From an uncultured Algibacter sp. (GTDB lineage Bacteria > Bacteroidota > Bacteroidia > Flavobacteriales > Flavobacteriaceae), in assembly GCA_947502405.1 (NCBI GenBank), contig CANMZT010000007.1, forward strand, positions 124,001-188,000: DNA of 64,000 bases. The letters run 5' to 3'. A model generated the notes under the pieces. The model ran no database searches. It was not told where the DNA came from and saw only the letters and a program-made list of their open reading frames with translations. Both the position numbers and the translations under genes were made by a program. The first letter of the stretch is position 1, and every line of letters starts with the position of its first letter. Below, in pieces: positions 7,873 through 61,833 of this stretch.

Positions 7873-7875
7873 AAG

Positions 7876-29753: not shown

Positions 29754-29754
29754 A

Positions 29755-35620: not shown

Positions 35621-35623
35621 GGT

Positions 35624-37018: not shown

Positions 37019-37027
37019 CTATTTTAA

Positions 37028-37849: not shown

Positions 37850-37850
37850 A

Positions 37851-38726: not shown

Positions 38727-38732
38727 ATAAGC

Positions 38733-39890: not shown

Positions 39891-39974
39891 TACTATTTAA
39901 TTAGATGAATAATCGCTAAAATACATTTTTTACAGATGAAACTATATAAAAGCTTTAGATATTTACAGCAAAAC

Positions 39975-40931: not shown

Positions 40932-40946
40932 GGACTTAAACGCTTA

Positions 40947-42092: not shown

Positions 42093-42192
42093 CTGTTTAA
42101 ATTTTATTGTTTTTTTATAAGTGAGATGTAATTCGCCATTAAATATCTCGGTGTTTTACCTTTTTATCATTATGGCTCATTTTATGAAACTA

Positions 42193-43260: not shown

Positions 43261-43266
43261 AGTTTA

Positions 43267-45251: not shown

Positions 45252-46095
45252 ATCTGTAACAATAAGCTAGTTTTGAATAGATTTTAGACTTTATACGTTT
45301 TATAAAAGGCACTCTACCCCTTTGATACACTTCATGGTATTTTTCTTTTGCAAGCTCATTGAATTCAGTATCCTTTTCTTGTTTAAAAAAACGTTGCAAG
45401 ATTTTTGCTGCTTGCAAAAAACCTTGTTTCATTAACTTAAAATCTACACTCATAGAATGTTTTCTAATTCTATATAATGCTAAAATATTCTTATTATTTT
45501 TTATACTTTTTGAATAGTAAAATAACTGTGTCCAAAATACCCAATCTTCGTGATTAGGTAAAGCTTCGTTAAAAGATAACTCATTTTCAAGAATAAGACT
45601 TCTTTTAAATAATACGGCATGACAAGGTATAGATTTTCTATATTCCCAATCCAATATAACCTGTTTTTTATAGTCTTCTTCAGACAAAAAAGGAGATAAG
45701 TATCGGTGTGGAGCTTCATTATTAGTCCCATCTATAAAAGACAAATAATCGGATACACTTATCTCAGAATCCAAAAGGTCTTTAAGTTGTTCTGAGAACT
45801 TTTTTGGCTTTATTAAATCATCCGAATCTAAAAGTTGAACGTATTCTCCACATGCCATTTTTAATCCAAAATTCCTTGCGCTACTTAAGCCTCCATTTTC
45901 TTTATATTTATATAGAAATCGTTTATCTTTTTTGCACCATATTGCAGCTATTTCTTTAGAATTATCTGTACTACCATCATCAACAATAATACACTCCCAA
46001 TCTTGATGCGTTTGCTTATAAACAGATTCTAATGTTTCTCCTAAATAGGATGCTTGATTGAAGCATGGTACAATGACAGAGACTTTTAAACTCAA
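45235..46095 (-). CDS. glycosyltransferase family 2
   Basis: A 286-residue GT-A enzyme. VSVIVPCFNQASYLGETLES, WECIIVDDGSTDNSKEIA, GGLSSARNFGLKMACGEYVQ and LLDSDDLI (D-x-D at about 95) give the family. It is closely similar along its length to the protein at 46886-47722, so both probably arose by duplication, with the gene at 46092 between them. It overlaps the upstream gene by 4 bases. Confidence 0.92.
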   Translation of the reverse strand: MSLKVSVIVPCFNQASYLGETLESVYKQTHQDWECIIVDDGSTDNSKEIAAIWCKKDKRFLYKYKENGGLSSARNFGLKMACGEYVQLLDSDDLIKPKKFSEQLKDLLDSEISVSDYLSFIDGTNNEAPHRYLSPFLSEEDYKKQVILDWEYRKSIPCHAVLFKRSLILENELSFNEALPNHEDWVFWTQLFYYSKSIKNNKNILALYRIRKHSMSVDFKLMKQGFLQAAKILQRFFKQEKDTEFNELAKEKYHEVYQRGRVPFIKRIKSKIYSKLAYCYRYVRKN

Positions 46096-46871
46096 AATTT
46101 TTCTGGCTTATTAAAAATGAATTTTATTAAGTAAAAATAACGTTTAAGAGCATACCATAAGTCTACAAAAAAGCCTTTAAACAGTTTAAATATTGAAATT
46201 ACAAAACCTTTTGAAGCGGCCATGAAACTAACATCATCATGCCAAAGCTGATAGTTACCAACTACATCATTCTTAAATCTAAAAAATAGCTGCTTTTTAG
46301 TTCTGCTTATTTGATAACAAAATATTGCCGGAACAAAATCAATATCATAACCCGCTTTAAGAACTCGTGTTGTCCACTCTTTATCTTCAAACGTAGCTAC
46401 ATCTTCTCGAAATGAAAGTTTTTCCCAAACTGATTTTCTAAACGCTGAACCTGAAAAAATTAAACCTGATTTATTGGGGTCTTGTTTTGCTGAAACCTTG
46501 TTTATATAATTCTGATAATCATTAGGGCTGTGTAAACACCTAACACCAGCCAAATTAGAATTTTCGTTAAATTTCTGTTTTATCAATTTAAAAAAATCAT
46601 GACTTACCGGATAAGCATGTGCACTAAACATAACTACGATTGGAAACTTAGTTTGTTCTGCTGCAAAGTTGGCACTTCCGCCATAACTAAAATTATTAAT
46701 AGTAATAAATCTAGCACCATAAGCCTTTGAAACCGATTCGCTTTCGTCAGAAGACAGATTATCTATAACTATAATTTCTCCAATATCATCAAAATAGCGT
46801 TCCTTGAGGTTTTTAAGTAAAAACCCTAATGCCTTTTCTTGATTTTTATTTCTTATTACTACTGAAATCAT
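46092..46871 (-). CDS. glycosyltransferase family 2
   Basis: A 259-residue GT-A enzyme. ISVVIRNKNQEKALGFLLKN and EIIVIDNLSSDESESVSKAY match the rhamnosyltransferase-like GT2 group. The metal site is not a plain D-x-D but lies near VVMFSAHAYPVS (about 75-86), so this may be a variant or inactive form. FEDKEWTTRVLKAGYDI holds the usual E-D pair. It lies between two related GT2 genes. Confidence 0.85.
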   Translation of the reverse strand: MISVVIRNKNQEKALGFLLKNLKERYFDDIGEIIVIDNLSSDESESVSKAYGARFITINNFSYGGSANFAAEQTKFPIVVMFSAHAYPVSHDFFKLIKQKFNENSNLAGVRCLHSPNDYQNYINKVSAKQDPNKSGLIFSGSAFRKSVWEKLSFREDVATFEDKEWTTRVLKAGYDIDFVPAIFCYQISRTKKQLFFRFKNDVVGNYQLWHDDVSFMAASKGFVISIFKLFKGFFVDLWYALKRYFYLIKFIFNKPEKF

Positions 46872-46885
46872 AGAATAGAACCTCT

Positions 46886-47722
46886 TTACTTTTTAAATAA
46901 CTTTAACGACTTAGATATGTAATTAGCCATTTTATGCGTTGATGATTGCTTGATTTTAGATACCGTATTTTCTTTGTTTTTTAAAAGATACAGTAAGTAA
47001 TTAACCGTTTCATCATGATGTTTTTTATATAGCGCTTTGTGTTTATTGAAAACATATTTCATATTGGATATACGGTGGTTTTCTAAAGTATCAATTAACA
47101 TGGATTGTTTTTGTTTTCTATAATAAAACAGAAACTCCTCAACCACTTTATAAATCCAACCACGTTTTGTAATAGCTAGCCAAAATTCCCAATCTTCAAA
47201 ACCATTTTTCATGTTTTCATCATAACCACCAACTTCATCCCAGCATTTTTTTCGATAAAGTGATGTAGCAATCAAACAATTTTCAAAAAGAATTGCATGA
47301 TACGTTGTGCCTTCTGGTTTCAATTCATGGATAATATTTTCTTTTCTCTTATAAAAAAACTTACTGTAACAGGATACTATGGCTAAAGCATCATTATTTT
47401 CAAGTTCTGGAACTAAAGTAGACAAAAACTTCTCATGTATTATATCGTCTGCATCAAGAGGTAAAATATATTCCCCTTTACTAAGCTTTACTCCAGCATT
47501 TCTTGCACTACTTAACCCTCCATTTTTCTTTTCAATATACTTAAAACGATTATCGTTTTCGCACCATACATTTGCTACTAGTTTCGTATCGTCTGGACTC
47601 CCATCATTAACAATAATACATTCCCAATTTGCATAAGTTTGATCCATAACCGATTGCAATGCCTCATCCAAAAAATGAGCTTGATTATAACACGGAACAA
47701 TTATGGATACCAAACTACTCAT
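46886..47722 (-). CDS. glycosyltransferase family 2
   Basis: A 278-residue GT-A enzyme. VSIIVPCYNQAHFLDEALQS, WECIIVNDGSPDDTK, GGLSSARNAGVKLSKGEYIL and PLDADDIIHEKF (D-A-D-D, about 95) define it. It is a close paralogue of the protein at 45235-46095, which also has the WECIIV and GGLSSARN blocks. FEDWEFWLAITKRGW carries the catalytic Asp/Glu region. Confidence 0.92.
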   Translation of the reverse strand: MSSLVSIIVPCYNQAHFLDEALQSVMDQTYANWECIIVNDGSPDDTKLVANVWCENDNRFKYIEKKNGGLSSARNAGVKLSKGEYILPLDADDIIHEKFLSTLVPELENNDALAIVSCYSKFFYKRKENIIHELKPEGTTYHAILFENCLIATSLYRKKCWDEVGGYDENMKNGFEDWEFWLAITKRGWIYKVVEEFLFYYRKQKQSMLIDTLENHRISNMKYVFNKHKALYKKHHDETVNYLLYLLKNKENTVSKIKQSSTHKMANYISKSLKLFKK

Positions 47723-47724
47723 GA

Positions 47725-48507
47725 TTAAAACTTATTTAATATACCAAGCCTTACCAAGAGCTTAATAATTCTGGAGTGTCGCAAATTATTTATTTTCTTT
47801 CGATATAAGAGAATATCGTTTACATCTTGTGTAAAAATAGCATAATCTGTTTTTAAAACAGCCTCCTTTTCATTGAACTTAACAACTTGATTTTTAGGAT
47901 TAGAACTCAATCCTCCAATATAAAACGTTGAAAGTGGTTTTGCAATATGCTTATAACTTAAATTATATTTACAGATAGCATCAATAAAGAATTTCCAGTC
48001 TGAGACTATTTTAAAATCTTCTTTATACAAGTTTGTTCTTAAAAATGCCTCTTTATTTATAAAAGTGGCTGGATGTGGCAAGGTATCTTCCACAAAATAG
48101 GAAAATGATAAGGCATCTGGATATGTTTTTATAAAGGTTTTATCTCCCTCAACAACTTGTAAATCAAAATACACTAAATCAAAATCTTTAATGTGCTCTT
48201 TATTTTTTTCTAAAACTTTATTATTGTAAAAATGGTCTCCGCTATTTAAAAACAATAAATAGTCTCCTGATGCATGTTTTATTCCTTTATTCATGGCTTC
48301 ATAAACACCACTATCTGGCTCACTAACCCAAAAATCAAATCGATTGGTGTTTTGTTTTAAATAATCAACACTTCCATCTGTTGAATTACCATCAATTACT
48401 ATATACTCGAAATCTTGAAAAGTTTGTTGTTTTACACTATCCACTGTTCGTTTAAGCCCTTCAAGATTATTATAGTTAACCGTTATTATGGAGAGTCTTG
48501 GTTTCAT
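47725..48507 (-). CDS. glycosyltransferase family 2 (WcaA-like)
   Basis: A 260-residue GT-A enzyme. SIITVNYNNLEGLKRTVDSV, YIVIDGNSTDGSVDYL and LLFLNSGDHFY (N-S-G-D, about 88) are typical of the WcaA/EpsE-like group. It is a clear paralogue of the protein at 52170-52946, down to the C-terminal block LRHSRIIKLLVRLGI. It starts 29 bases after the GT-acetyltransferase fusion gene. Confidence 0.9.
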   Translation of the reverse strand: MKPRLSIITVNYNNLEGLKRTVDSVKQQTFQDFEYIVIDGNSTDGSVDYLKQNTNRFDFWVSEPDSGVYEAMNKGIKHASGDYLLFLNSGDHFYNNKVLEKNKEHIKDFDLVYFDLQVVEGDKTFIKTYPDALSFSYFVEDTLPHPATFINKEAFLRTNLYKEDFKIVSDWKFFIDAICKYNLSYKHIAKPLSTFYIGGLSSNPKNQVVKFNEKEAVLKTDYAIFTQDVNDILLYRKKINNLRHSRIIKLLVRLGILNKF

Positions 48508-48536
48508 TCAGTTACTAAGAGGTGCTATAAATCAGT

Positions 48537-50069
48537 TTATTCTACTTTGTTTAAGGATTGTAAAAACTCTTCAACCTCGAAAAAATGTTTTTCAACTAGG
48601 TGCAAATCATCACTATTAAAATTCCACCATTTAATATTTAATAGCTTTTTAATGGTTTCATCTTCAAACCTATATTTTTTTATTTTTATTGGGTTACCAA
48701 CCGCAATTGCATAAGGCGGTATATCTTTAGAGACAACAGCACCTGCCCCAATTATAGCTCCATCTCCTATAGTTACTCCATCCAATACTGTAACATTCAT
48801 TCCTATAAAAACATCATTACCAATTGTAATGGGCTTAAATTCTTCAATTTTATTATCAGAACTTAAAGTCATCCCATTTTGCTTTGCTGTAGAGTAAAAC
48901 ATAGGGTGTGTAGATACGCCTTTGGTAGGATGCATACCTCTACCTGCCATAAAATTAGCCCCTATAGAACAAAACTTTCCAACAACTGTATTGTTGATTA
49001 CAGAATTTTCAGAAATATAAGTGTAATTACCAATTATAGAATTAGACAATCTTGAAGATGGATAAATTTTGGTGTTTGTCCCAAGATATGTCTTAACACT
49101 TACAATGTTTTGATTATACCTAAGTACTTTTTTTAAATCTGGAAAAATTAAAAAAAACAGGTTTCTAAGTTTATTTTTAACACTTCTCTTCACATTTTTT
49201 TTAGCTGGTTTCTCTTTAAGTGATTTATAAAAGTTTTTAATAATTAAATTAGCGTTTTCATCTTCAACAATATCTATTAACTTAACTTCAATATGTTTTA
49301 CTAACTCGTTATGATTAAATTCGGTATGAACGCCATTATGTTCTCCTGTATTATCAAAACCAAAATTTTGAACTAATGACTTATTAGGAAATAAAGTATA
49401 ACCATTTTGAAGTAATACTGATGCATGCCACTTCACAAACCACGTATTAAGTTTGCCTGTAATATTATCTGCTAATTGGCTACTTAAATAATCTCCACCA
49501 AATTTATCTAGGCTGTTAAGTAACTTTTTTTGTTTTAACTCATTCCAAAGAAAAAGCGCATCATCATTAAAATGTTTCCATGATCTCTCCCAGGTTGCCC
49601 AACCCCAACACAATGGCACATTATAAAAAAAAGTGTTAGGTAAATTTGATTTATGCGGATACATATACCCTGAAACATGCATAACCTTATCATTTTCTTG
49701 ATAAAGATGTAATGCGTTATTCATGTAATTCAAGAACCCAGAAGAGGTTTCAATATCATCTTCTAGAACAATAACTCTTCCGTGTTTTTCAACTACCTCA
49801 GTTACACCATTGATAATGGATTGCGCTAAGCCTCTATTTTTATCACTAACAATAACTTTTACACTTTGAAATCTATCTTCTGCTTTTGCTATTTCATGAA
49901 CTTTATTAATGTTTTTTAACTCTTGCTCTTCAATATGTTTTTTTGGACCATCGCAAAAAATATACAAATCACTTTGTGCAGCTTCAGGATTTAAAGAAAG
50001 GGCATCCAAAGTTCTTTTCGTATGTTTTGGCCTGTTAAAAGCGAAAAGAACTATTGGTGAAAAACTCAT
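48537..50069 (-). CDS. glycosyltransferase fused to a left-handed beta-helix acetyltransferase
   Basis: A 510-residue fusion. Residues about 1-260 form a GT-A-like domain (PIVLFAFNRPKHTKRTLDAL, GRVIVLEDDIETSSGFLNYM with E-D-D at about 97, VPLCWGWATWERSW). Residues about 325-495 are a hexapeptide acyltransferase of the xenobiotic/VatD type (SNSIIGNYTYISENSVI, SIGANFMAGRGMHP with probable catalytic His, ITIGNDVFIGMNVTVLDGVT, IGAGAVVSKDIPPYAI). It may transfer a sugar and O- or N-acetylate it. An uncharged linker joins the two parts, and no frameshift is needed. Confidence 0.88.
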   Translation of the reverse strand: MSFSPIVLFAFNRPKHTKRTLDALSLNPEAAQSDLYIFCDGPKKHIEEQELKNINKVHEIAKAEDRFQSVKVIVSDKNRGLAQSIINGVTEVVEKHGRVIVLEDDIETSSGFLNYMNNALHLYQENDKVMHVSGYMYPHKSNLPNTFFYNVPLCWGWATWERSWKHFNDDALFLWNELKQKKLLNSLDKFGGDYLSSQLADNITGKLNTWFVKWHASVLLQNGYTLFPNKSLVQNFGFDNTGEHNGVHTEFNHNELVKHIEVKLIDIVEDENANLIIKNFYKSLKEKPAKKNVKRSVKNKLRNLFFLIFPDLKKVLRYNQNIVSVKTYLGTNTKIYPSSRLSNSIIGNYTYISENSVINNTVVGKFCSIGANFMAGRGMHPTKGVSTHPMFYSTAKQNGMTLSSDNKIEEFKPITIGNDVFIGMNVTVLDGVTIGDGAIIGAGAVVSKDIPPYAIAVGNPIKIKKYRFEDETIKKLLNIKWWNFNSDDLHLVEKHFFEVEEFLQSLNKVE

Positions 50070-50137
50070 AATCTATTATTGTTTATACAAAAATGGGAAA
50101 AGTTTCTGTCTAAGCCTAACTATAGACATGTATTAAT

Positions 50138-51151
50138 TTATTGAAGTGATTTATTTTTTTTCATTTTCAAAAATAATTTTACTCTTCTTTTTAAGGATTC
50201 TGGAATAAACCTTAATACCCTAGCTTTTATAGAATTTCTCTGGAACACATCCAATAAAATTAAATCCGCATTACTTACATCTTTCTGGGTATTATGATTT
50301 TTTTTATATGTTTTATGAACCAATTTAAATAAATTTATAGGAACCCAACTTAGGTTTAGACTATTCATTTTTACATATTTTGAGGTTTCAAGATGGTAAC
50401 AATAAAAATTGCCATTTGTATCAAAATATATCTTTTTTAAATACTGATTATTCAATATTGATTCATAGGTTTCATAACCATGATCTAGACAAATACAGTC
50501 ATCAAACGATTCATTATCAATTATTTTATTGAGTCTGATACTTTTTATTCCTTCTTGGTCTCGGTAAGCTTTATAAGCCCTCATTTCAGTAAAAGCGTAA
50601 TCGGGATGCTTGATAAAATCCTTTTTTTGCTCGTTTAAATACGCCTCGTCTGTAAATAATTCATTAATCTTATTTACATAACCATGAACAACTTTTGATG
50701 AAGAAATATAACCATTCATACAAATACCATTGCATTGTTCAGTACAATGAAAATCTTTAAATTTTTCTTCTTGCTTATTCAAGTCTGATAAAATCATGTT
50801 ATCAGAATCAAAATGCCAAAAAGCATCAATGCTATTTTTATTTATAAAATTGTGTATGTAAAACCAACGTTTGAATACAAACTTTGTCCAAAATTCTTTT
50901 TTATGTTTTACTCCTGCAATGTGCTTATAAACTTTATCAAAAACCGTAATCTCATCACTCGCATCATAATCTTGAAATCTATGATGCTCTACTTTAGCTT
51001 TTTTTGCAACAATCGCATTTTTTTCATCACCAAGTAAAATTATTCTATTTTGAGGGTTAGTTAATTTTACTTGTTTAAGCGTGTAATATAAATACGGTGA
51101 GTTGCCATAATGGCAAAAAATTATTGGTTTTTTTGAATCTTCAATGTTCAT
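50138..51151 (-). CDS. putative glycosyltransferase (GT-A like, family unclear)
   Basis: A 337-residue protein. PIIFCHYGNSPYLYYTLKQV, IILLGDEKNA and AFWHFDSDNMILSDL (D-S-D at about 112) are consistent with a GT-A nucleotide-sugar fold. TEQCNGICMNGYISS is a distinctive later block. I cannot assign a CAZy family. It lies among transferase genes with gaps of 68 and 40 bases, so a role in glycan assembly is likely but not proven. Confidence 0.7.
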   Translation of the reverse strand: MNIEDSKKPIIFCHYGNSPYLYYTLKQVKLTNPQNRIILLGDEKNAIVAKKAKVEHHRFQDYDASDEITVFDKVYKHIAGVKHKKEFWTKFVFKRWFYIHNFINKNSIDAFWHFDSDNMILSDLNKQEEKFKDFHCTEQCNGICMNGYISSSKVVHGYVNKINELFTDEAYLNEQKKDFIKHPDYAFTEMRAYKAYRDQEGIKSIRLNKIIDNESFDDCICLDHGYETYESILNNQYLKKIYFDTNGNFYCYHLETSKYVKMNSLNLSWVPINLFKLVHKTYKKNHNTQKDVSNADLILLDVFQRNSIKARVLRFIPESLKRRVKLFLKMKKNKSLQ

Positions 51152-51191
51152 CTTAAATTATCTCCAAAAAGAATTAAGCTATAATTAAATC

Positions 51192-52142
51192 TTACCTTTT
51201 GTTTTTGTAAAAGAACGGAAAAATACTTTTTCTACGTGCAACTATTGGAAAATACTTAATGCTAAGTAATGAAAATAGAATTCTATTGTTACTAAAAAAA
51301 ATAGAAAACCAAGACATAATACTTTGTTTCAAACCTTTACCTTCTTGATAGTTGAGCATCCAATATTTTTTTAAGAGTGCATCTATTTTTTTTAAGGAGA
51401 CTTTATGTTTACAGCTCCAAAAAATAAGCTTCTCGTAGACTTTAAGTTTGTCATATAATTTTCCGTTATTAAAAACATTAGTATCGTGTACACCTCTCAT
51501 AGCCAAGGGCTCATGAATAACACCTGTGGCTAATTTAGTTTTTAAAGCCATTTTTATAAACATGTGTGTATCTTCATCTACTGGTAACAACTCATTAAAA
51601 AAACCAACCTTATCAAAAACCGATTTCTTTACTGTTAAGCCATCAATTGAAAAATGCCCTTTTTTGTAATGTAATAATACTTCAAAAAGTGCTTCCGGCT
51701 TTACTTTTTCTGTAATTGTTGTTAATTTTAATATAGACCTTTCAAATTCCTTAGATTCCCTGTAAAAATGAGCTCCGATGGCATTGTAAACTCCATCAAT
51801 AGAATGGTCTTTAGCAAATACTTTTTGGTCATTTTTAAATCTATTTTTTAAATAAAAATCATCTGAATCTAAAAACGCAATATAATTACTCGAAGCCTTT
51901 TTAATACCCAAGTTTCTACTAGCAGATCTCCCTTTGTTTAGTCCATTAGGATGATGAAATATTTTAATTCTATCATTTTCTTCCTGCAATTTTTCAATTA
52001 TGTGTAACGAGCTATCCTCGCTTCCATCATTTACTACAATAACCTCAACAACCTCTGGTTGATCTAAAGCAGAAGTTATCGCTTTTTCAACAAAACGTTC
52101 CGTATTAAAAACTGGTATGATTACAGAGACTAAAAACTTCAT
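51192..52142 (-). CDS. glycosyltransferase family 2
   Basis: A 316-residue GT-A enzyme. LVSVIIPVFNTERFVEKAIT, EVIVVNDGSEDSSLHII and YIAFLDSDDFYLKNRF (D-S-D-D, about 95) are typical. It is basic at the C-terminus (RRKSIFPFFYKNKR), perhaps to lie on the membrane. Upstream and downstream genes are GT2 and GT-A-like, all in the same direction. Confidence 0.92.
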   Translation of the reverse strand: MKFLVSVIIPVFNTERFVEKAITSALDQPEVVEVIVVNDGSEDSSLHIIEKLQEENDRIKIFHHPNGLNKGRSASRNLGIKKASSNYIAFLDSDDFYLKNRFKNDQKVFAKDHSIDGVYNAIGAHFYRESKEFERSILKLTTITEKVKPEALFEVLLHYKKGHFSIDGLTVKKSVFDKVGFFNELLPVDEDTHMFIKMALKTKLATGVIHEPLAMRGVHDTNVFNNGKLYDKLKVYEKLIFWSCKHKVSLKKIDALLKKYWMLNYQEGKGLKQSIMSWFSIFFSNNRILFSLLSIKYFPIVARRKSIFPFFYKNKR

Positions 52143-52169
52143 ATATATTACCAGAGTATTTTAATGATA

Positions 52170-52946
52170 TTAAAATTCATGAATTAAACCGAGTTTTATT
52201 AATACCCTAATAGTTCTGGATTTTCTTAAGGTTCTTAAGGTTCTTTCCAATTTATAGCGGTCCTTAAGGTCAATCATAAAAGGCTTAAACTCTTTATTTA
52301 AAACCTGTTCTCTTTCTGCTTTTACGGCAACTTGGTTTTCTTTTAAAGAACTTAACCCATCTCTGTAGTAAGTAGAAAATGTTTCATCTATACACTTGTA
52401 AGTTGCATGATGCTTACAAATTGCTAGAATTAGAAATTTCCAGTCTGATACAATTTTTAGATTTTCATCATAATTACCCAATTGATTAAATAACTCCTTT
52501 TTTATAAATGTTGCTTGATGTGCAGGTAAATCTTCGTGCAAAAATTTAAATGTTAAGCTTTTAGGAGGCTTTTTTATATAACTTTTGTTTTCACCAATTA
52601 CATTAATGCTAAAATAAATAACATCATCATTTTGTAAAAAACTATAAACTTTATTTAAACTATTACTATCATTAAAATGATCTCCACTATTCAAAAAATA
52701 TAAATAATCTCCTTTGGCAACATGAATACCTTTATTCATAGCATGGTAAATACCATTATCTGGTTCGCTTACCCAGTAGCTAAAGTTATCCTTATTAGCT
52801 TCTATTATTTTTTTACTTCCATCAGTAGAATCGCCATCAATTACAATATGTTCATAATCTTTAAATGTTTGCTCTTTAACGCTTTGTATTGTGCGCTCAA
52901 GACCTAAGCAATCATTATAATTTACGGTAATGATGGATATTAACAT
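52170..52946 (-). CDS. glycosyltransferase family 2 (WcaA-like)
   Basis: A 258-residue GT-A enzyme. ISIITVNYNDCLGLERTIQS, HIVIDGDSTDGSKKII, YLYFLNSGDHFND and SEPDNGIYHAMNKGI identify it. The protein at 47725-48507 shares almost the same blocks, including VSDWKFLI and the C-terminal LRKSRTIRVLIKLGLIHEF. The two are paralogues about 3.7 kb apart. Confidence 0.9.
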   Translation of the reverse strand: MLISIITVNYNDCLGLERTIQSVKEQTFKDYEHIVIDGDSTDGSKKIIEANKDNFSYWVSEPDNGIYHAMNKGIHVAKGDYLYFLNSGDHFNDSNSLNKVYSFLQNDDVIYFSINVIGENKSYIKKPPKSLTFKFLHEDLPAHQATFIKKELFNQLGNYDENLKIVSDWKFLILAICKHHATYKCIDETFSTYYRDGLSSLKENQVAVKAEREQVLNKEFKPFMIDLKDRYKLERTLRTLRKSRTIRVLIKLGLIHEF

Positions 52947-52953
52947 AATGTAA

Positions 52954-54222
52954 TTATTGCAATATATTTTTAAACAATTTTATGTAATTCTTAGCCTGTA
53001 TGGCGTCATCATATTTTTTAAGAGCTTCATCTCTAATAACTTCCGCACTATTAAAAACACCTTCCTTTAGAAAATTGGAAATTGACTTCGCTAATGCGTC
53101 TACACTTATTTCATTTGCTAAAATCCCATTTTTCTTATGATTAATCATATCTGGTATTCCTCCAATAGGAAAGCCAATTACTGGTGTACCGCATAACAGA
53201 GACTCAATTACGGTGTTAGGCAAGTTATCCATTAATGATGGTATAACAAAAACATCTGCTGCTGAATATACCGAACTTAACAATTCATCATCAGTGATTT
53301 TCCCATACTGAATGATGTTTTCAAACTGGTTTAAAGCTTCATTTTTATTTCCTATAACGAATAGTTGAATATTACCATCATCCAACTTTTTAATAGCTTC
53401 AAGAAGAAATCTGAAACCTTTTCTATTTGCATTAATTAAATCTGCAACAAACAGCACTACCTTTTTATTTTGAGGAATATTAAGTAACTCCCTAGAGTTT
53501 ATTTTATCTCTTATTTTAAAAATATCAGAATCGATTCCATTGGGGATTTTATGAACAGGAAAATTATTAAAAAAATCACTTTGCTTTAATTGATTTGTCA
53601 TCCAATCACATAATGTAACAAAGTGTAAATTATTAACATGCGCTAAAGCTTCTTTTTTAAGTTTAAGTACTTTATTAAACTGCTCTAATTCTTTGTTTGT
53701 AACAGTTCTTTTAATAGGAAACCCTCTTTCGTCCATCCCTAAAAAAACTTCTTCATAATGTTCACCTCCTGAAAAGGGATTCATATCATGCAAGGTCCAA
53801 ACTACAGGTTTAGTGTTTTTCTCAAAAAAAGATTTGTAATCTATAAATTCTGAAACCCAATGTAAATTTATTATGTCGGCTTCTTTATATTGGTCTGATT
53901 CTGTTATGTCGTATTTTGAATTTGGGAATGAAAACTTCTCTAACCCATCAATTCTGTTTTCAATAAATAATGCTTCAGCAATTTTTTTTGGAGGTGCCAA
54001 TATCTTAAATTTAGTGAGAACCTTTATGAATCTTCTTTTTAATTTACTGAATAGGGAATTATTTGTTTTTTGATGAAAAACATAGACTTCTTTATAATTT
54101 GACGACTTATTGGCTAATAATAATTTTGAGTTTATATTATTCTTAAGCAAACCCAGATGCAGTCTTACGCAAGCTTTACCTGCACCGCCTTTATCACTTG
54201 TATTAACCAACAATACCTTCAC
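52954..54222 (-). CDS. glycosyltransferase family 4
   Basis: A 422-residue GT-B enzyme. MKVLLVNTSDKGGAGKACVR is the acceptor-side start of the GT4 group that often lies in capsule clusters, and WTLHDMNPFSGGEHYEEVF is a hallmark of the same group. The donor site shows VVLFVADLINANRKGFRFLL, PSLMDNLPNTVIESLLCGTPV with E-x7-E (about 332-352). The start overlaps the radical SAM fusion gene by 20 bases. Confidence 0.92.
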   Translation of the reverse strand: MKVLLVNTSDKGGAGKACVRLHLGLLKNNINSKLLLANKSSNYKEVYVFHQKTNNSLFSKLKRRFIKVLTKFKILAPPKKIAEALFIENRIDGLEKFSFPNSKYDITESDQYKEADIINLHWVSEFIDYKSFFEKNTKPVVWTLHDMNPFSGGEHYEEVFLGMDERGFPIKRTVTNKELEQFNKVLKLKKEALAHVNNLHFVTLCDWMTNQLKQSDFFNNFPVHKIPNGIDSDIFKIRDKINSRELLNIPQNKKVVLFVADLINANRKGFRFLLEAIKKLDDGNIQLFVIGNKNEALNQFENIIQYGKITDDELLSSVYSAADVFVIPSLMDNLPNTVIESLLCGTPVIGFPIGGIPDMINHKKNGILANEISVDALAKSISNFLKEGVFNSAEVIRDEALKKYDDAIQAKNYIKLFKNILQ

Positions 54223-56383
54223 TATAGTCTTTAATTAATTGATTAATAGTAAGTAGATTTTTTGATTCGCTATTTTCAGAAATATAAGCAGCTATTTTAC
54301 CTCCCAAAGTATAATCAAGAGCTAAAAAATTAGTATTAAGCGTTTCAGCAAATAAAACAGAATGAAAACGCATACAAATATTGAGTTCAGATGATTGCAT
54401 ACTTGCTACAATAGAATCAACAGTTGATAATTTTTTCTCGTAGCTTACCCTAGAATCTTTTGAGAAATATGTTTTTATAAAGCGTCTTGAAAAATCTCTA
54501 TCATCTCCTCCCAACACAAAGTTATGCATGTGGTTAAATACAATTTTTTCCAGATTAAGCTCATCTGCTTTTTTCTTAATCAAATTCGCCAGAGCATCTT
54601 CAAATTGTGCTTTTGTTTTAGCAAATGCTTCTTCAGTCATATCTCCTTTAGCATATAAATACTCCCAATCTCTAAGGTATAAAGAAAGAGTATTCTCTTT
54701 CTTTGGTTGCTTTTGTTTTAAAAAAGATTGCAAATACAACTTAGCTGGATCTCCAATCATTTCAGTATTAGAAATATTGAAGTTTTTAAGAGCATATTTT
54801 TGACTATTCGCGTCTCTTAACTTAATCTCATCAGCTAACAGCAATATTTTGTGAATGGCTTTTTTATATGTTTCGTTATTTATTGGTCCTAATCCACAAC
54901 CATAAACTGTGGATTTTTTGTTGTGTTTTTTTGCCACACTAAATGCAAGTAATGGTACATAAAGCTCGTTTAAATCCATTAAGGGTCCGCCTCCCATAAT
55001 AACTTCATCACAGCTTTTGGAATATCGTAAAAAATCAAAATTACTGGTACTTACAACATTTGCTTTTATTTTAAGCTCTTTTATAGTTTGATGTGTTATA
55101 AATGGATATAAACTTCCTATAACCACATTTAGTTTATCTCCATATTGTAGCTTATATGAATTTACAATGCCCGCTAAAATAGCTTTATCTCCAACGGTTT
55201 CAGTACCATACCAACCCATTATAAAAATACTATACTTAGCTTTTGGTAGTTTCGGTGCCCTTAAAACACTTGACAGTTGTACAACTCGAGCTTCATCATA
55301 TGGTCTTAAAAACTTCTTTATAAATCCATCTTTGTATACTCTAAGTTGTTCTTTATAGGTTATTTCAGAATGATAATCATGTATACAATCGTTGCACTCA
55401 TCAGTTATTAAGCGTCTTTTTTCATCTAAATTATTCGCATATATGGCAGTTGAAGACTCATTTATGGCATTTCCAATTATTTTAGACTTAGGTGCACAAT
55501 AGGCTAACTCGCCTTTTGCATTAATATTTATGCCTTTAGTATGATATGGGCAACCTATAGTTCTCTTTCCTCCTAACAACATGTTCTGAATGCTAGAATA
55601 AGTGCGTTTATACGTTTTATTGGTTTCGTAAGTTCTTTTTAGCTTCTCAAAAAACAAGGCTAAATGATAACTTTCATCACTTGTAAAATTGCGGATAACT
55701 TCTTCTCTATCTTCATTATACAAACGCTTAATAAATTCGGCCACCCTAAAACGCCCGTATATATCATTCGCTTTGGCGAATTCGAGTAACTCATCTATTT
55801 CCCATAAATTATCTTTAGATATTGTAGCACCAAAAGAGATAGGAATTTTTAAATCTTCTTTAACGTAATTAATAACCTCAATAGCTGTTTCAAAATTGCC
55901 AGATCTTCCTCTTATTTTGTCATGTACTTCACCAAAGCCGTCTAAAGAAACCATAACACTAAAGTTAACATTGTGCTGTTTACACAACTTATTTACTTTA
56001 CATAACTGCTGTTTAACCTCTTCAACTTTAATACAATTTGTGATAATGCTTAAGTACTTTAACTTAGGTAGAAAATCTATACAGGCTTTGTACAAATCAA
56101 CTAAGTCTTCCCTTAGTGTGGGCTCGCCTCCAGTAATACCAACTCCTGTTACATCTGAATAAAGTGAATCAGAGAAAATCAATTTCAAATCATCATAAGT
56201 AACTTCTTTACCTTGTTTATTCTTCCAAATGTTACACATGGTACATTTGGAATTACAAATATCATTAGCATTAAGATTTATAATGACAGGCTTCTTTGTC
56301 TTATTTAGAACATGTATTTCATTGAGTTTTAAACGCAAAAGCGTTTTTACTTTTTGAAATACTAATTTTAATTTTTTCAACAT
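54203..56383 (-). CDS. radical SAM protein fused to a polysaccharide pyruvyl transferase
   Basis: A 726-residue fusion. Residues about 36-340 are a radical SAM domain with the cluster motif C-x3-C-x2-C at Cys43, Cys47 and Cys50 (CNSKCTMC), GGEP at 85-88, and a SPASM-like set of Cys at 278, 296, 330 and 333. Residues about 384-700 are a pyruvyltransferase-like domain (FIMGWYGTETVGDKAILAGI, MGGGPLMDL, VYGCGLGPIN, CMRFHSVLFAETLN). No frameshift is needed between them. It may oxidise or modify a sugar and transfer a pyruvyl-type group, but the reaction is unknown. A -7 box at 56406-56413 lies just upstream. Confidence 0.88.
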   Translation of the reverse strand: MLKKLKLVFQKVKTLLRLKLNEIHVLNKTKKPVIINLNANDICNSKCTMCNIWKNKQGKEVTYDDLKLIFSDSLYSDVTGVGITGGEPTLREDLVDLYKACIDFLPKLKYLSIITNCIKVEEVKQQLCKVNKLCKQHNVNFSVMVSLDGFGEVHDKIRGRSGNFETAIEVINYVKEDLKIPISFGATISKDNLWEIDELLEFAKANDIYGRFRVAEFIKRLYNEDREEVIRNFTSDESYHLALFFEKLKRTYETNKTYKRTYSSIQNMLLGGKRTIGCPYHTKGININAKGELAYCAPKSKIIGNAINESSTAIYANNLDEKRRLITDECNDCIHDYHSEITYKEQLRVYKDGFIKKFLRPYDEARVVQLSSVLRAPKLPKAKYSIFIMGWYGTETVGDKAILAGIVNSYKLQYGDKLNVVIGSLYPFITHQTIKELKIKANVVSTSNFDFLRYSKSCDEVIMGGGPLMDLNELYVPLLAFSVAKKHNKKSTVYGCGLGPINNETYKKAIHKILLLADEIKLRDANSQKYALKNFNISNTEMIGDPAKLYLQSFLKQKQPKKENTLSLYLRDWEYLYAKGDMTEEAFAKTKAQFEDALANLIKKKADELNLEKIVFNHMHNFVLGGDDRDFSRRFIKTYFSKDSRVSYEKKLSTVDSIVASMQSSELNICMRFHSVLFAETLNTNFLALDYTLGGKIAAYISENSESKNLLTINQLIKDYSEGIVG

Positions 56384-56405: not shown

Positions 56406-56413
56406 CAAATTTA
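56406..56413 (-). promoter_or_regulatory. possible internal promoter of the glycan block
   Basis: The minus strand reads TAAATTTG, an exact TAnnTTTG match. The box overlaps the wzt stop codon and lies 23 bases before the start of the radical SAM fusion gene. It could let the transferase genes be transcribed apart from the export genes. Confidence 0.4.
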
Positions 56414-57688
56414 ATTTTTAACAGAATTCATACTCCATTTACAATCTAGCATAACACACCCAAAATCAACACCTTGATATTTGTGGAAAATAGTTCCTGT
56501 TTCTTCAATTTTAAAATCTACAACATCAAATAAGCTTCTGATTTTTTCTTTATTAGGGACATGATACCCTATAATAACTCTGTACTCGCTTGGTAAAAGA
56601 ACGGCCTTTGGAAACTTTACATTCGCAATATAGTTTCCATCTTTTTTTATAAACTGGTGTAAGTCTATTTCGGATGAAAACACAACACGCTCAAATTGGT
56701 CTCTTATCCTAAAACCTACAGAACCATACTCAACAATATCTTGAGATACTTTCAATTTTACCTGAAGTATAATTTGCTCTTCAAAACCAAATAATCCGCA
56801 AATATTATTTTGATCATCTCGCATAGAGACTTCTAATATATCTGAAGATTTATTGGGTTTTTTATTTATATAATGTGCTTGAGTATTGGCCTCATCACTC
56901 TTCAAATAAAAATCTACTGCTTTATGAGTTTCTCCTTCAAAAACAGTTTTACCGTGCTGCAGAACAATAGCTCGTGTACATAAACTCTTTACCGCTGCCA
57001 TATTATGGCTTACAAATAGTACCGTTCTACCTTGGCTATTACTAATGTCTTGCATTTTACCAATGGCTTTCTTTTGAAATTCGGCATCTCCTACAGCCAG
57101 TACCTCATCAACAACTAAAATATCTGGATCTAAGTGTGCTGCCACAGCGAATGCTAAACGCACCGTCATCCCAGAAGAGTATCGCTTAACAGGTGTATCA
57201 ATATAGCGTTCACATCCAGAAAATTCAACTATTTCTTTTAACTTAGATTGAATCTCTTTTTTGGTCATACCTAAAATAGCACCATTTAAGAACACATTTT
57301 CCTTACCTGTCATTTCTGGATGAAACCCAGTTCCTACCTCTAATAAGGAAGCAATTCGTCCTTTGGTTTTTATCTCTCCTGTTGTAGGCCCCGTTACTTT
57401 TGAAAGTATTTTTAATAAGGTAGATTTACCAGCACCATTTTTTCCAATAATACCTACCACTTCCCCGCGCTCAACATCAAAATTAATATCTTTTAGCGCC
57501 CAAACATATTCAGATTCACCTTTTCTGCTTCTGTCATTACTTTCACCTATTTTAAGATACGGATCTTCTTTTCCTCTTATTTTACTCCACCATCTATTTA
57601 AATCATGGCCAAGTGTACCTGTACCAACTAAACCTAATCGGTATTGCTTAGAAAGATTCTCAACTTTTAAAATAATATCCTTTTCCAT
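56411..57688 (-). CDS. wzt: polysaccharide ABC exporter ATPase Wzt with C-terminal glycan-binding domain
   Basis: A 425-residue protein. The ATPase domain has Walker A GIIGKNGAGKST (79-90), the TagH/Wzt-type TGFHPEMTGKENVFLNG, signature RYSSGM (about 175) and Walker B ILVVDEVLAVGD. Residues about 275-425 are an immunoglobulin-like Wzt C-terminal domain (FEEQIILQVKL, PSEYRVIIGYH, FKIEETGTIF) that in O-antigen systems reads a chain-end modification. It pairs with the upstream Wzm permease gene, which it abuts. Confidence 0.93.
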   Translation of the reverse strand: MEKDIILKVENLSKQYRLGLVGTGTLGHDLNRWWSKIRGKEDPYLKIGESNDRSRKGESEYVWALKDINFDVERGEVVGIIGKNGAGKSTLLKILSKVTGPTTGEIKTKGRIASLLEVGTGFHPEMTGKENVFLNGAILGMTKKEIQSKLKEIVEFSGCERYIDTPVKRYSSGMTVRLAFAVAAHLDPDILVVDEVLAVGDAEFQKKAIGKMQDISNSQGRTVLFVSHNMAAVKSLCTRAIVLQHGKTVFEGETHKAVDFYLKSDEANTQAHYINKKPNKSSDILEVSMRDDQNNICGLFGFEEQIILQVKLKVSQDIVEYGSVGFRIRDQFERVVFSSEIDLHQFIKKDGNYIANVKFPKAVLLPSEYRVIIGYHVPNKEKIRSLFDVVDFKIEETGTIFHKYQGVDFGCVMLDCKWSMNSVKN

Positions 57689-58561
57689 TTAGATGGTATC
57701 TATGAAACTCTTTTCTGTTTTATTAAATATTATTAGGCCTAAAAGAAAAACTACAATGCTAAATAGTGCGGTATAAACCATTTTAGGTAATGAATAATCG
57801 CCAACGCCTAAAGTCATATATCTAAACGCTTCAATAATTGTTGTCATGGGATTATATTCTACTACCCAAGAAATATTTGGTAATTTTTCTTTAAAAAAAG
57901 ACAACGGATACATAACAGCAGAACCATACATAAGTAATTGCACTCCAAAGCTTATTAAAAACTTTAAATCTCTATACTTAATTGTCATTGAAGATATAAT
58001 CATACCTAAACCTAATCCCAAAATCCCCATAAAAAATATTAGCATTGGTATGAATATTATAGCTGATTTAGGGCTTGCGCCTCCTGCTTTATCAGTAAAA
58101 AAAGCATAGTAAATATAAAATCCAATAAACACTAATATTTGTATTCCATACTTTACTAGATTTGTTAAAACTACCGATAATGGCACAATAACTCTAGGAA
58201 AATAAACTTTACCAAATAGACCTTGATTTTGTGAAAATGTATTACTGGTTCCCGTTAAACATTCCTTAAAATAATTCCAACACGTAATTCCTGCAAGGTT
58301 AAACAAAAAAGATGGGACACCATCTCCTGTTGGGATGTTGGCCATGTTATTGAATATCAAAGTAAAAATTACCGAAGTAAATAATGGCTGTATAAAATAC
58401 CATAACGGACCGAGTATGGTTTGCTTATATACCGTAATAACATTACGCTTTACAAACAGCAGAAGTAAATCTTTATAGTACCATATCTCTTTAAGGTTTA
58501 AATCTATCAACTTTTGCTTAGGAGAGATGGTATAAAGCCAATTGTCGTTTTTATTAGCCAA
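57689..58561 (-). CDS. wzm: polysaccharide ABC exporter permease Wzm
   Basis: A 290-residue inner-membrane protein with six membrane helices. LLFVKRNVITVYKQTILGPL, PLWYFIQPLFTSVIFTLIFN and VEYNPMTTIIEAFRYMTLG are signatures of the ABC-2 polysaccharide permeases (Wzm, KpsM, TagG). It forms the channel for a lipid-linked glycan with Wzt. The stop touches the wzt start, and it follows the Wzc gene by 11 bases. Confidence 0.93.
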   Translation of the reverse strand: MANKNDNWLYTISPKQKLIDLNLKEIWYYKDLLLLFVKRNVITVYKQTILGPLWYFIQPLFTSVIFTLIFNNMANIPTGDGVPSFLFNLAGITCWNYFKECLTGTSNTFSQNQGLFGKVYFPRVIVPLSVVLTNLVKYGIQILVFIGFYIYYAFFTDKAGGASPKSAIIFIPMLIFFMGILGLGLGMIISSMTIKYRDLKFLISFGVQLLMYGSAVMYPLSFFKEKLPNISWVVEYNPMTTIIEAFRYMTLGVGDYSLPKMVYTALFSIVVFLLGLIIFNKTEKSFIDTI

Positions 58562-58572: not shown

Positions 58573-61038
58573 TTAAATTTTGAAAAAAGATTTAATCTTA
58601 GTTGATAATTTATTCTTAGCAGAGTCATCGTCATTATATCCATTACCATAGCTTCCATAACCGTAACCATAACCATAGCCGTAGCCATAGCCATAACCAT
58701 ATTTACCCTTTTGATTATATCCGTTGTAAACAAAACTTAGATTTTCAATTTCGCCCTTATTATATTTTGTATTAATAAGATTAATCATTCCCTTTTTAGT
58801 ATAGTCTTGTCTCACAATATAAACAGTTGCATCAGCATACTCTGTTAACTCCAAAGCATCGGCTACAAGCCCGATTGGTGGTGTATCCAGAACAATATAA
58901 TCGTAAGATTTTTTTAAAGTTTTAATTAAATCACCCATTCGCTCTCCAATCAATAATTCCGCAGGGTTTGGGGGTATTGGACCAGAAGTAATAACATCTA
59001 AATTAGGCACTTTTGTTTTTTGTAGAACCTCATTTAAATCCTTTTGTCCAATTAAATAATTTACTACACCAATATCATTTTGAATATCAAAGTCGCCAAA
59101 GATTTTTGGCTTTCTTAAATCTAATCCAACCAAAATTGTTTTCTTACCACTCATTGCAAAAACCGTAGCAATATTTATGGAACAGAATGTTTTTCCTTCC
59201 CCACTCACAGACGATGTAACCATTACCGTTTTAGTTCCATCTAAATTGTGTTTTTTATAAAAATACTGCAAACTTGACCGTATAGACCTAAAAGCTTCAG
59301 CAATTGTTGATTTTGGTTTTAAATGAACCGCTAAATTATTATCTAAATTGTTTTTACCAACTACACCCAGCATTGGTATACTAGATAAATTTTCAAGTAC
59401 TTGCGGATTGTGTATTTTGTTATCAAAAAATGTTAATAAAAAAGCTAAAAGGAGCGGCGGTATTAAACCACCAATAATTGCAAATAAATACCTAGAACTC
59501 AGTTTTAAATCAATAGGTGTAGCTCCAGTATCCTTAGCTGGATCAATAACAAGAATATCCGAAACACTTGCTGATTTTATTATATCTGCCTCACCGCGTT
59601 TCGCTAGAAAAACATTATAGGTTTTCTCACTCAAAGCATATTGCCGTTGTATATCAAACAACTTTTGTTGAGCCGCTGGAAGCTTTCTTATTTTAGCATC
59701 CTCTATGGCTATTTTATTATTTACTATTTGCATTTCGCGCTTTAGCTCATTAGTAACTGAACTGATATTCTCTAACAGCACCTCTTTTAATCCTTCAATT
59801 TGCCTGTTTAAGTCTGCAAAAATTGTAGCATCTTTTCTTACTGTAGACCCGTATTTAGATTTTTGTACTGATAATGCATTAATCTTAGAGACATTAGCTA
59901 AAATATTACCTTCATCTATTCCAGATACTGCTGGTGCTGGTACATCTGTAAAATTATTACTTGTTATTAGGTAGTTTTTTAAACTTGAATAATAGGCGAG
60001 TTTTCTATTAATTTCGTCTTTGTTAATTTCTAAATCTGAAAGCTTACCATTAATAACAGTACTTTTATCATCCAGATTGTAAATCCTGTTTTTTTGCCTA
60101 TAATCATTTAAAGAATCAGCACTTAAAGTTAGCTGGTTTTTCACTCTACTTAATTGCTCATCAATAAACGCTATTGTGTTTGTAACAAATTGATTCTTTC
60201 TATTAAGTTGGTCTTCGCTTAAAACCCTAACTGTTTCATTTAGATAGTCAACTATTTTAGGTTTATTCACATCAACCATACTTAAGTTTAAAATAGCTGA
60301 GTTTCTGGGGTTATTTATAGCTAGTTTACTTCTGTATTTTGACACAACCGCATCAAAATCACTAAACTGAATATAAAATTCTTCATTAGGTTTAACAGTT
60401 CTTCCTTCAGCTAAATAAACTGTTCCATTAAAGTGAGGTAAATTAACTACATCTCCTAAACTAAAAACTTGCTTAAACTCACCAATTGTAACATCTAAAT
60501 TAGTTTTCTTATAATCTGAAAAGTTTTGAACTCTAACAGGAGTCGATTCAAAATTAAAGTATAATTCGTATTTATTATTTTCTAAAAAAGTAACCCTAAT
60601 AGGTACATTTAACAATTGATAGGTATCTGGAGACAAATTAACCCTAAAAGGCGCATCTGTATAAACATCATCCTTTCTAAATCTAGATTGTTTTAAATAC
60701 GTAATGTAATATTGTAAATTTTCAACCACTTTTTCATGAATACTCCTTGACCTTAAAGCATTAATCATGGTTTGCACTTTACCAGAAACACCACCCCAAT
60801 TAAACGTTAAGCTTGTATTTGATGTGAATAAAGGATTAGATTCTTCTTCAATTGAAATTTGCGTTCCTAATCTATAAGACTGCTGCGTACGAATGTTTTG
60901 CTGATAAACTATAAACACTCCTATTCCAATAAATAAAACAAATAACTTCCAGTAGCTAAGAACACGAATCAAAAACGCCTTTATATCAAAAGATGGCTTT
61001 TGTATTTGTGACTCTGAAACATCAAATTCTTCTTCCAT
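58573..61038 (-). CDS. wzc: polysaccharide co-polymerase / tyrosine autokinase Wzc-like
   Basis: An 821-residue protein. A membrane helix at about 30-50, a long periplasmic Wzz-type coiled coil (about 60-490) and a second helix at about 510-530 precede the BY-kinase. The kinase has Walker A SSVSGEGKT (about 604-612), Walker A' VGLDLRKP and Walker B VLDTPP (about 716). The C-terminal tail has 12 Tyr, eight of them in Tyr-Gly repeats (about 780-795), the expected phosphorylation cluster. It controls chain length and export through Wza. It follows the Wza-like gene by 6 bases. Confidence 0.94.
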   Translation of the reverse strand: MEEEFDVSESQIQKPSFDIKAFLIRVLSYWKLFVLFIGIGVFIVYQQNIRTQQSYRLGTQISIEEESNPLFTSNTSLTFNWGGVSGKVQTMINALRSRSIHEKVVENLQYYITYLKQSRFRKDDVYTDAPFRVNLSPDTYQLLNVPIRVTFLENNKYELYFNFESTPVRVQNFSDYKKTNLDVTIGEFKQVFSLGDVVNLPHFNGTVYLAEGRTVKPNEEFYIQFSDFDAVVSKYRSKLAINNPRNSAILNLSMVDVNKPKIVDYLNETVRVLSEDQLNRKNQFVTNTIAFIDEQLSRVKNQLTLSADSLNDYRQKNRIYNLDDKSTVINGKLSDLEINKDEINRKLAYYSSLKNYLITSNNFTDVPAPAVSGIDEGNILANVSKINALSVQKSKYGSTVRKDATIFADLNRQIEGLKEVLLENISSVTNELKREMQIVNNKIAIEDAKIRKLPAAQQKLFDIQRQYALSEKTYNVFLAKRGEADIIKSASVSDILVIDPAKDTGATPIDLKLSSRYLFAIIGGLIPPLLLAFLLTFFDNKIHNPQVLENLSSIPMLGVVGKNNLDNNLAVHLKPKSTIAEAFRSIRSSLQYFYKKHNLDGTKTVMVTSSVSGEGKTFCSINIATVFAMSGKKTILVGLDLRKPKIFGDFDIQNDIGVVNYLIGQKDLNEVLQKTKVPNLDVITSGPIPPNPAELLIGERMGDLIKTLKKSYDYIVLDTPPIGLVADALELTEYADATVYIVRQDYTKKGMINLINTKYNKGEIENLSFVYNGYNQKGKYGYGYGYGYGYGYGYGSYGNGYNDDDSAKNKLSTKIKSFFKI
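58654..58701 (-). repeat. coding hexanucleotide repeat: eight Tyr-Gly units in the Wzc tail
   Basis: Eight consecutive six-base units on the minus strand encode Tyr-Gly, followed by S-Y-G-N-G-Y. Codons alternate between TAT/TAC and GGT/GGC/GGA, so the units are not identical at DNA level. Repeats of this sort can change in copy number by slippage and so alter the number of phosphorylated tyrosines. Confidence 0.85.
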
Positions 61039-61044
61039 AGCTTT

Positions 61045-61833
61045 TTAAAGATTCTTTGTTAAAAAGTAAGTAGAAACTAAAACAGATAATATTGAAGCAA
61101 TTGTAGTCAAGTTTTGAAAAGCTGTCTCTCCTGTACCAATAGCTTTACGTTTTAAAGGTTTAACCAAAATCATATCATTGGGTTGTATGAAGTAAAACGG
61201 CGATTTCATAGCTTTAATATCTGTTAAATCGATATGATGTATTTTTTGACCATCTGGATATTGCCTAATCACTAAAATATCTTTTCGGTCAGCTGTTGGA
61301 GGAAGACCTCCCGCATTTGCTAGCGCCTCTATAATATTTACACGGTCTTGAAACAAGGTATATACACCAGCACCACCCTCTCCAGTTACAGTATATCTTA
61401 ATCCAGATAATTTAACTGTTACAAATATCTCTGCTGTTTCTTTAAAATATTTTTCGAGTAAAGCATTTTCAACCTTAGTTTTTATCTCATCTATAGTGTA
61501 GCCTAACACATTAATTTTTCCTAAAATAGGAAACTCAATATTACCGTGTAAATCAACCGTAAAACCACTAAAATATAAACCTCCATTTCCCAATCCCCCA
61601 TTAGTACTTTCAACAGGGTTAAAAATATCAACAAGTTCTGGATCTAAAGCTTTTACATTAATACTTAAAATATCACTTACCTGAACTTTATATGGTTTTG
61701 GCAACTCATTTACTATTAAAGACGTATCTACACCATCACCTTTATCTTGTAAGTAAACAAGGTCCTTATTAGTAATACAAGAGCTTAGTAGCAAGCTAAT
61801 AACCAATAAAATAACAAGAAAACGGCTCTTCAT
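61045..61833 (-). CDS. polysaccharide export outer-membrane lipoprotein Wza-like
   Basis: A 262-residue lipoprotein (signal ends LLLSSC; Cys19 is anchored). A polysaccharide-export domain (about 45-135; PKPYKVQVSDILSINVKALD, GNIEFPILGKINVLGYT) is followed by an SLBB domain (RYTVTGEGGAGVYTLFQDRV, IEALANAGGLPPTADRKDIL) and a C-terminal hydrophobic helix (about 243-260). It is shorter than E. coli Wza (379 residues) but normal for Bacteroidota. It should form the outer-membrane exit. First gene of the glycan block, with a -7 box 23 bases upstream. Confidence 0.92.
   Translation of the reverse strand: MKSRFLVILLVISLLLSSCITNKDLVYLQDKGDGVDTSLIVNELPKPYKVQVSDILSINVKALDPELVDIFNPVESTNGGLGNGGLYFSGFTVDLHGNIEFPILGKINVLGYTIDEIKTKVENALLEKYFKETAEIFVTVKLSGLRYTVTGEGGAGVYTLFQDRVNIIEALANAGGLPPTADRKDILVIRQYPDGQKIHHIDLTDIKAMKSPFYFIQPNDMILVKPLKRKAIGTGETAFQNLTTIASILSVLVSTYFLTKNL

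Follow-up and report, generated by a model that had tools for sequence, protein, structure and literature searches.

The window analysed here is a 64,000-nucleotide stretch of contig CANMZT010000007.1 (positions 124,001 to 188,000, forward strand) from an uncultured Algibacter sp., and the gene under study encodes a radical S-adenosylmethionine (SAM) enzyme and a polysaccharide pyruvyltransferase as one polypeptide (Table 1). An initial annotation, made from the letters of the DNA, had proposed a single uninterrupted reading frame joining the two domains, which was borne out: the frame starts with ATG and has no internal stop in the open reading frame (ORF) listing, and Pfam placed Radical_SAM at residues 41-203 (E 6.1e-16; 59.5 bits against a cut-off of 29.5) and PS_pyruv_trans at residues 398-691 (E 1.3e-28; 101.2 bits against a cut-off of 25.3), which agrees with the proposal that the second domain begins after about residue 384. 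The C-x3-C-x2-C motif predicted at residues 43-50 and the GGEP motif predicted at residue 85 lie exactly there, as C43/C47/C50 and G85-G86-E87-P88. With both motifs and a score above the cut-off, the N-terminal half belongs to the radical SAM superfamily (PF04055), and the C-terminal half, which exceeds the curated cut-off and carries an R-x-H motif, belongs to PF04230 (PS_pyruv_trans). Narrower models of the radical half fell short of their cut-offs, namely SPASM (PF13186; 15.2 bits, under 21.5), the MoaA equivalog TIGR02666 (49.7 vs 284.05 bits), and the twitch radical SAM subfamily NF033640 (61.9 vs 170 bits).

Table 1. The fusion gene, its parts and the genes around it (window coordinates; CDS, coding sequence; ABC, ATP-binding cassette; CMP, cytidine monophosphate).
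Feature	Coordinates	Strand	Basis and remarks
CDS, radical SAM (twitch) + polysaccharide pyruvyl transferase fusion	54203..56383	-	726 aa; ORF listing and Pfam
Radical SAM core, residues ~28-215	55739..56302	-	Pfam; fold matches SkfB, BlsE, anSME, MoaA
C43-x3-C47-x2-C50, SAM-binding [4Fe-4S] motif	56234..56257	-	41/41 sequences
Twitch auxiliary-cluster region, C278-x17-C296 (C-x12-G-x4-C), C330-x2-C333, H335, D336	55376..55552	-	Four Cys in 41/41
PS_pyruv_trans domain, residues ~384-700	54284..55234	-	Pfam 398-691; GT-B type fold matches
C496, fusion-specific Cys, loop G-C-G-x-G-P	54896..54898	-	39/41 sequences
R672-F673-H674, aligned with R-L-H of Pvg1p (5ax7)	54362..54370	-	Conservation and profile alignment
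GT4 glycosyltransferase, 20-bp overlap with fusion	52954..54222	-	ORF listing, Pfam; conserved partner
Wzt-type ABC exporter ATPase with Wzt_C, directly upstream of fusion	56411..57688	-	Pfam; group in 21/42 loci
Wzm-type ABC-2 membrane protein	57689..58561	-	Pfam; group in 21/42 loci
Chain-length/tyrosine-kinase-like protein and polysaccharide export protein	58573..61833	-	Pfam
Rest of glycan cluster: sugar transferase, Wzy_C, many glycosyltransferases, NeuB, CMP-sugar synthetase, second (unfused) PS_pyruv_trans	25915..52946	-	Pfam

The initial annotation had suggested searching for other proteins with this pair of domains and for their gene neighbourhoods. Scanning a collection of named genomes yielded 59 loci, 40 of which carry both domains by blastp and often a GT4 partner, while the remaining 19 were radical-only or not rescued by blastp. 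Adding the window and one further locus (L009) gave 42 loci and 41 distinct sequences for alignment; the metagenome record L018, one of the 40 and interrupted by an in-frame stop, was counted among the 42 and left out of the alignments. The other sequences are 25-80% identical to the window protein, and three near copies of it (L016, L017, and L053) were dropped for the sets of 38 sequences used below. Chance adjacency or an assembly chimera is ruled out by the retention of the fusion in other genomes across this range of identity.

By record title, the carriers belong to Bacteroidota, Planctomycetota, Cyanobacteria, Chloroflexota, a Halobacteriovoraceae bin, and a Zetaproteobacteria bin, hence about six phyla as named by titles, with many of the 40 loci being metagenome bins. 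Protein searches that were free of motif seeding, and whose counts are lower bounds given that two to five candidates were scored per genome, found the fusion in at least 5 of 299 genomes of the family (own genome included) and in at least 4 of 395 genomes of the phylum (including the own genome and G176, which also appeared in the family search). A fifth match in the phylum, in G632, was radical-only. Whole-fusion matches occurred in at least 3 of 184 sampled genomes of the phylum to which L037 belongs; L037 is a cyanobacterium by title, and its own genome is one of the 3. Among the 22 PS_pyruv_trans matches listed at E <= 1e-10 in 119 genomes of the order, the window's alone sits in a frame of more than 700 aa. 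With few carriers among the genomes searched and titles from about six phyla, the fusion is rare yet widespread. Searches of plasmids (1 record), phages (3 records), and viral contigs (1 locus) matched the radical half only.

Seven cysteines of the radical half (C43, C47, C50, C278, C296, C330, and C333) are invariant in all 41 distinct sequences, the window protein included, and so is the GGEP-type SAM motif G85-P88. The conservation of C43/C47/C50 is partly by construction, as the scan patterns that found the 40 loci covered the radical Cys motif; the iron-sulfur ligands were retained also in 2/2 further sequences found without motif seeding. Loss of these ligands in relatives, which the initial annotation had named as an outcome that would speak against it, was thus not seen in any of these sequences. 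The auxiliary cysteines follow the pattern C-x12-G-x4-C ... C-x2-C, with the glycine present in 37/41 sequences, a gap of 31-35 residues, and a C278-C296 spacing of 17 in 40/41, and no conserved Cys was found past C333 in the radical half among the 41 sequences. The full SPASM motif has seven cysteines, and twitch is a 'truncated SPASM', as described in passages of PMC6231123. Since the beginning of the SPASM motif is present and no further Cys follows, the protein fits the twitch subclass (C-x9-15-G-x4-C, a gap, then C-x2-C, with one auxiliary cluster) and lacks the seven-Cys motif and two auxiliary clusters of SPASM. Taken with the PF13186 score below cut-off, a SPASM assignment was rejected; of the earlier label 'radical SAM/SPASM-like', radical SAM stood, and SPASM was corrected to twitch with four Cys and one auxiliary cluster.

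In the C-terminal half, R523, R672, H674, and K696 are invariant in 41/41 fusion sequences. Compared with unfused pyruvyltransferases, for which 23 of 30 loci gave rows, R523, H674, and K696 were common to 23/23, R672 to 20/23, and D545 of the fusion to 22/23; some of these rows match the profile only in part, which makes the alignment uncertain there, and L082/L107 and L086/L103 each represent the same gene, and L098/L099 nearly so. Genuine phosphoenolpyruvate (PEP)-dependent pyruvyl transfer by the C-terminal half is somewhat more probable than its absence. Two positions set the fusions apart: C496 is found in 39/41 sequences overall and in 36/38 fusions vs 0/23 unfused rows, which have Q, V, I, N, R, F, or T instead, and Pro467 occurs in 38/38 fusions vs 1/23 unfused rows.

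The outcome of the radical step was weighed against known enzymes. The auxiliary cluster of BtrN, which performs a two-electron oxidation, has four Cys ligands, and that of MoaA, whose reaction is redox-neutral, has three (from passages of PMC9012708 and PMC6231123). Outside the clusters, no Cys of the radical half was conserved beyond 26/41 sequences, the best positions being 134, where the window protein itself has Cys, and 186, where it has Ala. Four auxiliary cysteines as in BtrN and the lack of a conserved non-cluster Cys in this half favour oxidation over another radical outcome, tentatively and by analogy, at a likelihood a little short of even. Radical SAM sugar epimerases such as AviX12 and NeoN offer a different precedent, in which the radical half would epimerise a sugar and the pyruvyltransferase half would ketalate the epimer. 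Radical SAM epimerases are also known for peptides, and part of the literature on them proposes a Cys hydrogen donor (Cys223, Cys372; PMC8326336), a role for which the radical half offers no non-cluster Cys above the 26/41 just mentioned. The nearly invariant C496 could, speculatively, donate the hydrogen if it faced the radical site; on balance, epimerisation seems unlikely.

The two halves appear to have travelled together. In the 395 phylum genomes, with at most five candidates scored per genome, a profile of the pyruvyltransferase half gave 327-438 bits for the four fused genes and 71 bits for the next match, and a profile of the radical half gave 402-482 bits and 117 bits, respectively; high-scoring copies were fused in 4/4 cases, and no unfused one of either half was found in these genomes at cut-offs of 1e-8 and 1e-25. 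Among the loci collected, outside the fusion rows and L001-L008 and L010-L014, a fusion-type pyruvyltransferase profile (E <= 1e-5) matched only the second half of L018. Tree distances of the radical half mirrored those of the pyruvyltransferase half (Pearson 0.93, Spearman 0.89, n=36), with Wzt vs Wzm serving as a comparison (Pearson 0.82, Spearman 0.84, n=15); L015, L016, L017, L027, and L053 were left out of the tree comparison. Because the trees of the halves mirror each other and the halves were found only fused, these results point to one old joining event with probably no reshuffling afterwards, and, judged from the sequences, the fusion architecture is old and stable. In one locus it is part of something larger: L009 encodes, at 3267-10139 on the minus strand, a 2290-aa protein that combines radical SAM, pyruvyltransferase, and GT4 domains with TPR repeats and one more radical SAM domain. 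The frame next to it holds several glycosyltransferase domains.

A joined gene may also reflect two ordinary enzymes brought together for co-expression, each acting on its own sugar without coupling. Each half does retain its own family residues, and a second, unfused pyruvyltransferase lies in the same cluster, so the fusion is not needed for the family in general. Against this stand the consistent pairing of the high-scoring halves in the phylum genomes, the fusion-specific C496, and a single confident AlphaFold2 model built from 38 sequences (predicted local distance difference test 92.4, predicted template modelling score 0.91), which together leave uncoupled co-expression rather unlikely.

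The fusion gene lies in a minus-strand polysaccharide operon that spans ~25.9-61.8 kb of the window, and the two PS_pyruv_trans matches of the own genome (E <= 0.001) are both inside this glycan cluster. Gene groups around all 42 loci were derived from own ORF calling (>=80 aa) and blastp grouping, so that starts are uncertain, and several loci end near the gene. The GT4 group (c0) was at position +1 of the fusion in 26/42 loci and within 9 kb in 30/42, and 24 of the 26 GT4 genes at +1 overlap the fusion or lie within 5 bp of it (the overlap of -199 bp counted in L021 probably stems from a mis-called start). Wzm and Wzt groups were each within 9 kb in 21/42 loci. In the divergent Flavobacteriia loci L044-L048, a different gene group, c10, which resembles glycosyltransferases by eye, takes position +1 in four and +3 in L046. 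The fusions thus lie mostly in glycan clusters. This context supports the link to glycans drawn by the initial annotation, whose interpretation as a whole is partly supported.

The same context bears on a radical half that would modify a peptide or protein instead of a glycan. Foldseek matches to the radical half among the best 50 of 1715 rows included SkfB, SuiB, BlsE, anSME, and MoaA, and its best solved-structure match, SkfB, is a peptide maturase. The fusion gene sits in a glycan cluster, however, and the unfused radical relatives also look glycosyltransferase-flanked from their ORF letters; weighed on gene context, a peptide or protein substrate is very improbable. These nearest unfused relatives (L055, L059, L060, and L061) have glycosyltransferase-like neighbours as judged by eye, and their surroundings suggest that radical SAM enzymes of glycan clusters form a broader class.

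The favoured reading is a bifunctional glycan-tailoring enzyme of a capsule- or O-antigen-like polysaccharide pathway that would combine oxidation of a sugar hydroxyl with ketal pyruvylation from PEP. GT4 would place a sugar on a lipid-linked or growing glycan, and the radical half, using SAM, its [4Fe-4S] cluster, and one four-Cys auxiliary cluster, would abstract hydrogen from one of the sugar's carbons. An electron would then pass to the auxiliary cluster as the sugar hydroxyl becomes a ketone, as in BtrN, and the C-terminal half would use PEP to attach pyruvate, as a ketal, to that sugar or to the one next to it. Substrate, order of steps, and chemistry are inferred from sequence and context. 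Bifunctional glycan tailoring as such is quite probable, and the reading as a whole stands at about even chances. A more specific version, in which radical oxidation (or epimerisation) is coupled to ketal formation on the same sugar, with Cys496 acting across the halves to give an undescribed monosaccharide unit that about six phyla would make with one and the same enzyme, is doubtful. These likelihoods, and those of the alternatives, overlap and do not add up to a whole.

Several observations weigh against the favoured reading. GT4 hardly mirrors the fusion: its tree distances correlated poorly with those of the radical half (Pearson 0.31, Spearman 0.10, n=26) and of the pyruvyltransferase half (Pearson 0.46, Spearman 0.37, n=26), which points to GT4 possibly having been exchanged more freely than the two halves. 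The GT4 group was absent within 9 kb in 12/42 loci (including L009 with its in-frame GT4), and the three neighbours scanned in L052 are CHAT/TPR, alpha-2-macroglobulin, and cadherin proteins, with no glycan gene among them. Predicting fold or function from sequence networks is described as difficult for the SPASM/twitch subfamily (in a passage of PMC6231123), and because of this warning the estimate for oxidation was kept below even. The protein also reached only 96.1 of the 213.1 bits required by the CsaB equivalog model TIGR03609. The profile of the pyruvyltransferase half did reach Pvg1p (5ax7), aligning R-F-H with R-L-H, in a weak match (E 0.027); by count of the chain numbering, this R-L-H probably equals R337, L338, and H339 of Pvg1p, which are PEP contacts in a computed model (described in part of PMC6801904). 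The 5ax7 structure was not among the best 50 of 1715 Foldseek rows, in which the matches assigned to the C-terminal half (by fold knowledge, as the table carries no query ranges) were GT-B proteins, chiefly UDP-N-acetylglucosamine 2-epimerases.

Such fold matches to WecB-type GT-B proteins, together with the fusion-specific changes at Cys496 and Pro467, would also suit a C-terminal half that is no longer a pyruvyltransferase and has become a different transferase with a GT-B fold within its superfamily. The retention of R523, R672, H674, and K696, the D545 shared with nearly all unfused rows, and the PS_pyruv_trans Pfam score of 101 bits argue against such a change of function, which is improbable.

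Placed beside known systems, the ketal-pyruvyltransferases CsaB, WcfO, and Pvg1p (PF04230) resemble the fusion in the PS_pyruv_trans domain, R-x-H, and other core residues; unlike the unfused pyruvyltransferases compared, the fusions have Cys496 and Pro467, and the CsaB model cut-off is missed. BtrN, a twitch radical SAM dehydrogenase of butirosin, resembles it in the radical SAM cluster and the four-Cys auxiliary cluster and is not known to have a pyruvyltransferase half; by name, it was absent from the PDB matches at E <= 0.001 (18 sequences). Its substrate is an aminocyclitol (from passages of PMC9012708). SkfB, BlsE, MoaA, and anSME share the radical SAM (SPASM/twitch) fold and sequence similarity with the fusion and have different substrates. 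In the colanic-acid pair WcaK/WcaL, a pyruvyltransferase gene lies next to a GT4 gene, an order that recurs here, although this pair is not known to have a radical domain, and the window GT4 reached only 27.8 vs 537.6 bits for WcaL.

No paper on a pairing of radical SAM with a pyruvyltransferase (PS_pyruv_trans, polysaccharide) was found in the open-licence full-text literature, and no title on such a fusion was among the paper titles listed in broader literature searches. Sequence databases probably do contain entries with both domains, and the architecture is undescribed in the literature searched, not unknown in absolute terms. This agrees with the initial annotation, which did not know the pair as a described enzyme; the many characterised fused homologues that it took as a sign to the contrary did not appear in the open-licence literature. 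Little exploration has been made of radical SAM chemistry that acts on surface polysaccharides. A 2019 review names only three functionally characterised ketal-pyruvyltransferases in its section 5.1, and in the available part of its text the words 'radical' and 'fusion' occur 0 times (PMC6801904). Each half represents a known family, and their lasting combination is new in the literature searched; the 'new glycan modification' and 'new chemistry' of the initial annotation remain inference. The fusion may make a surface-sugar modification so far undescribed, with the same pairing recurring in distant bacteria, and with an old fusion that is usually accompanied by GT4, the search for an undescribed sugar becomes narrower. 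The product is worth determining. Relatives in culturable genera (Algibacter, Flavobacterium, Pedobacter, and Reichenbachiella by record titles) are open to glycan analysis.

Further genes of interest were noted in passing. The second PS_pyruv_trans protein of the window (37028-37849, minus strand, 273 aa) covers profile positions 84-275 only and may act on a sialic-acid-like sugar, since the genes directly beside it encode NeuB and a HAD-domain CMP-sugar synthetase. A 510-aa protein (48537-50069, minus strand) combines an N-terminal glycosyltransferase-like region (GNT-I family) with a C-terminal hexapeptide acyltransferase-type region. A 337-aa protein (50138-51151, minus strand), which occupies position +4 relative to the fusion both in the window and in three near relatives, matched nothing in Pfam (E <= 0.1) or in NCBIfam (E <= 1e-5). 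Near the fusion of L050, a 721-aa frame (6757-8922, plus strand) resembles, by eye, a zinc-ribbon methyltransferase at its start. By coordinate count, that genome's second PS_pyruv_trans match falls inside this frame, which is perhaps a methyltransferase-pyruvyltransferase fusion.

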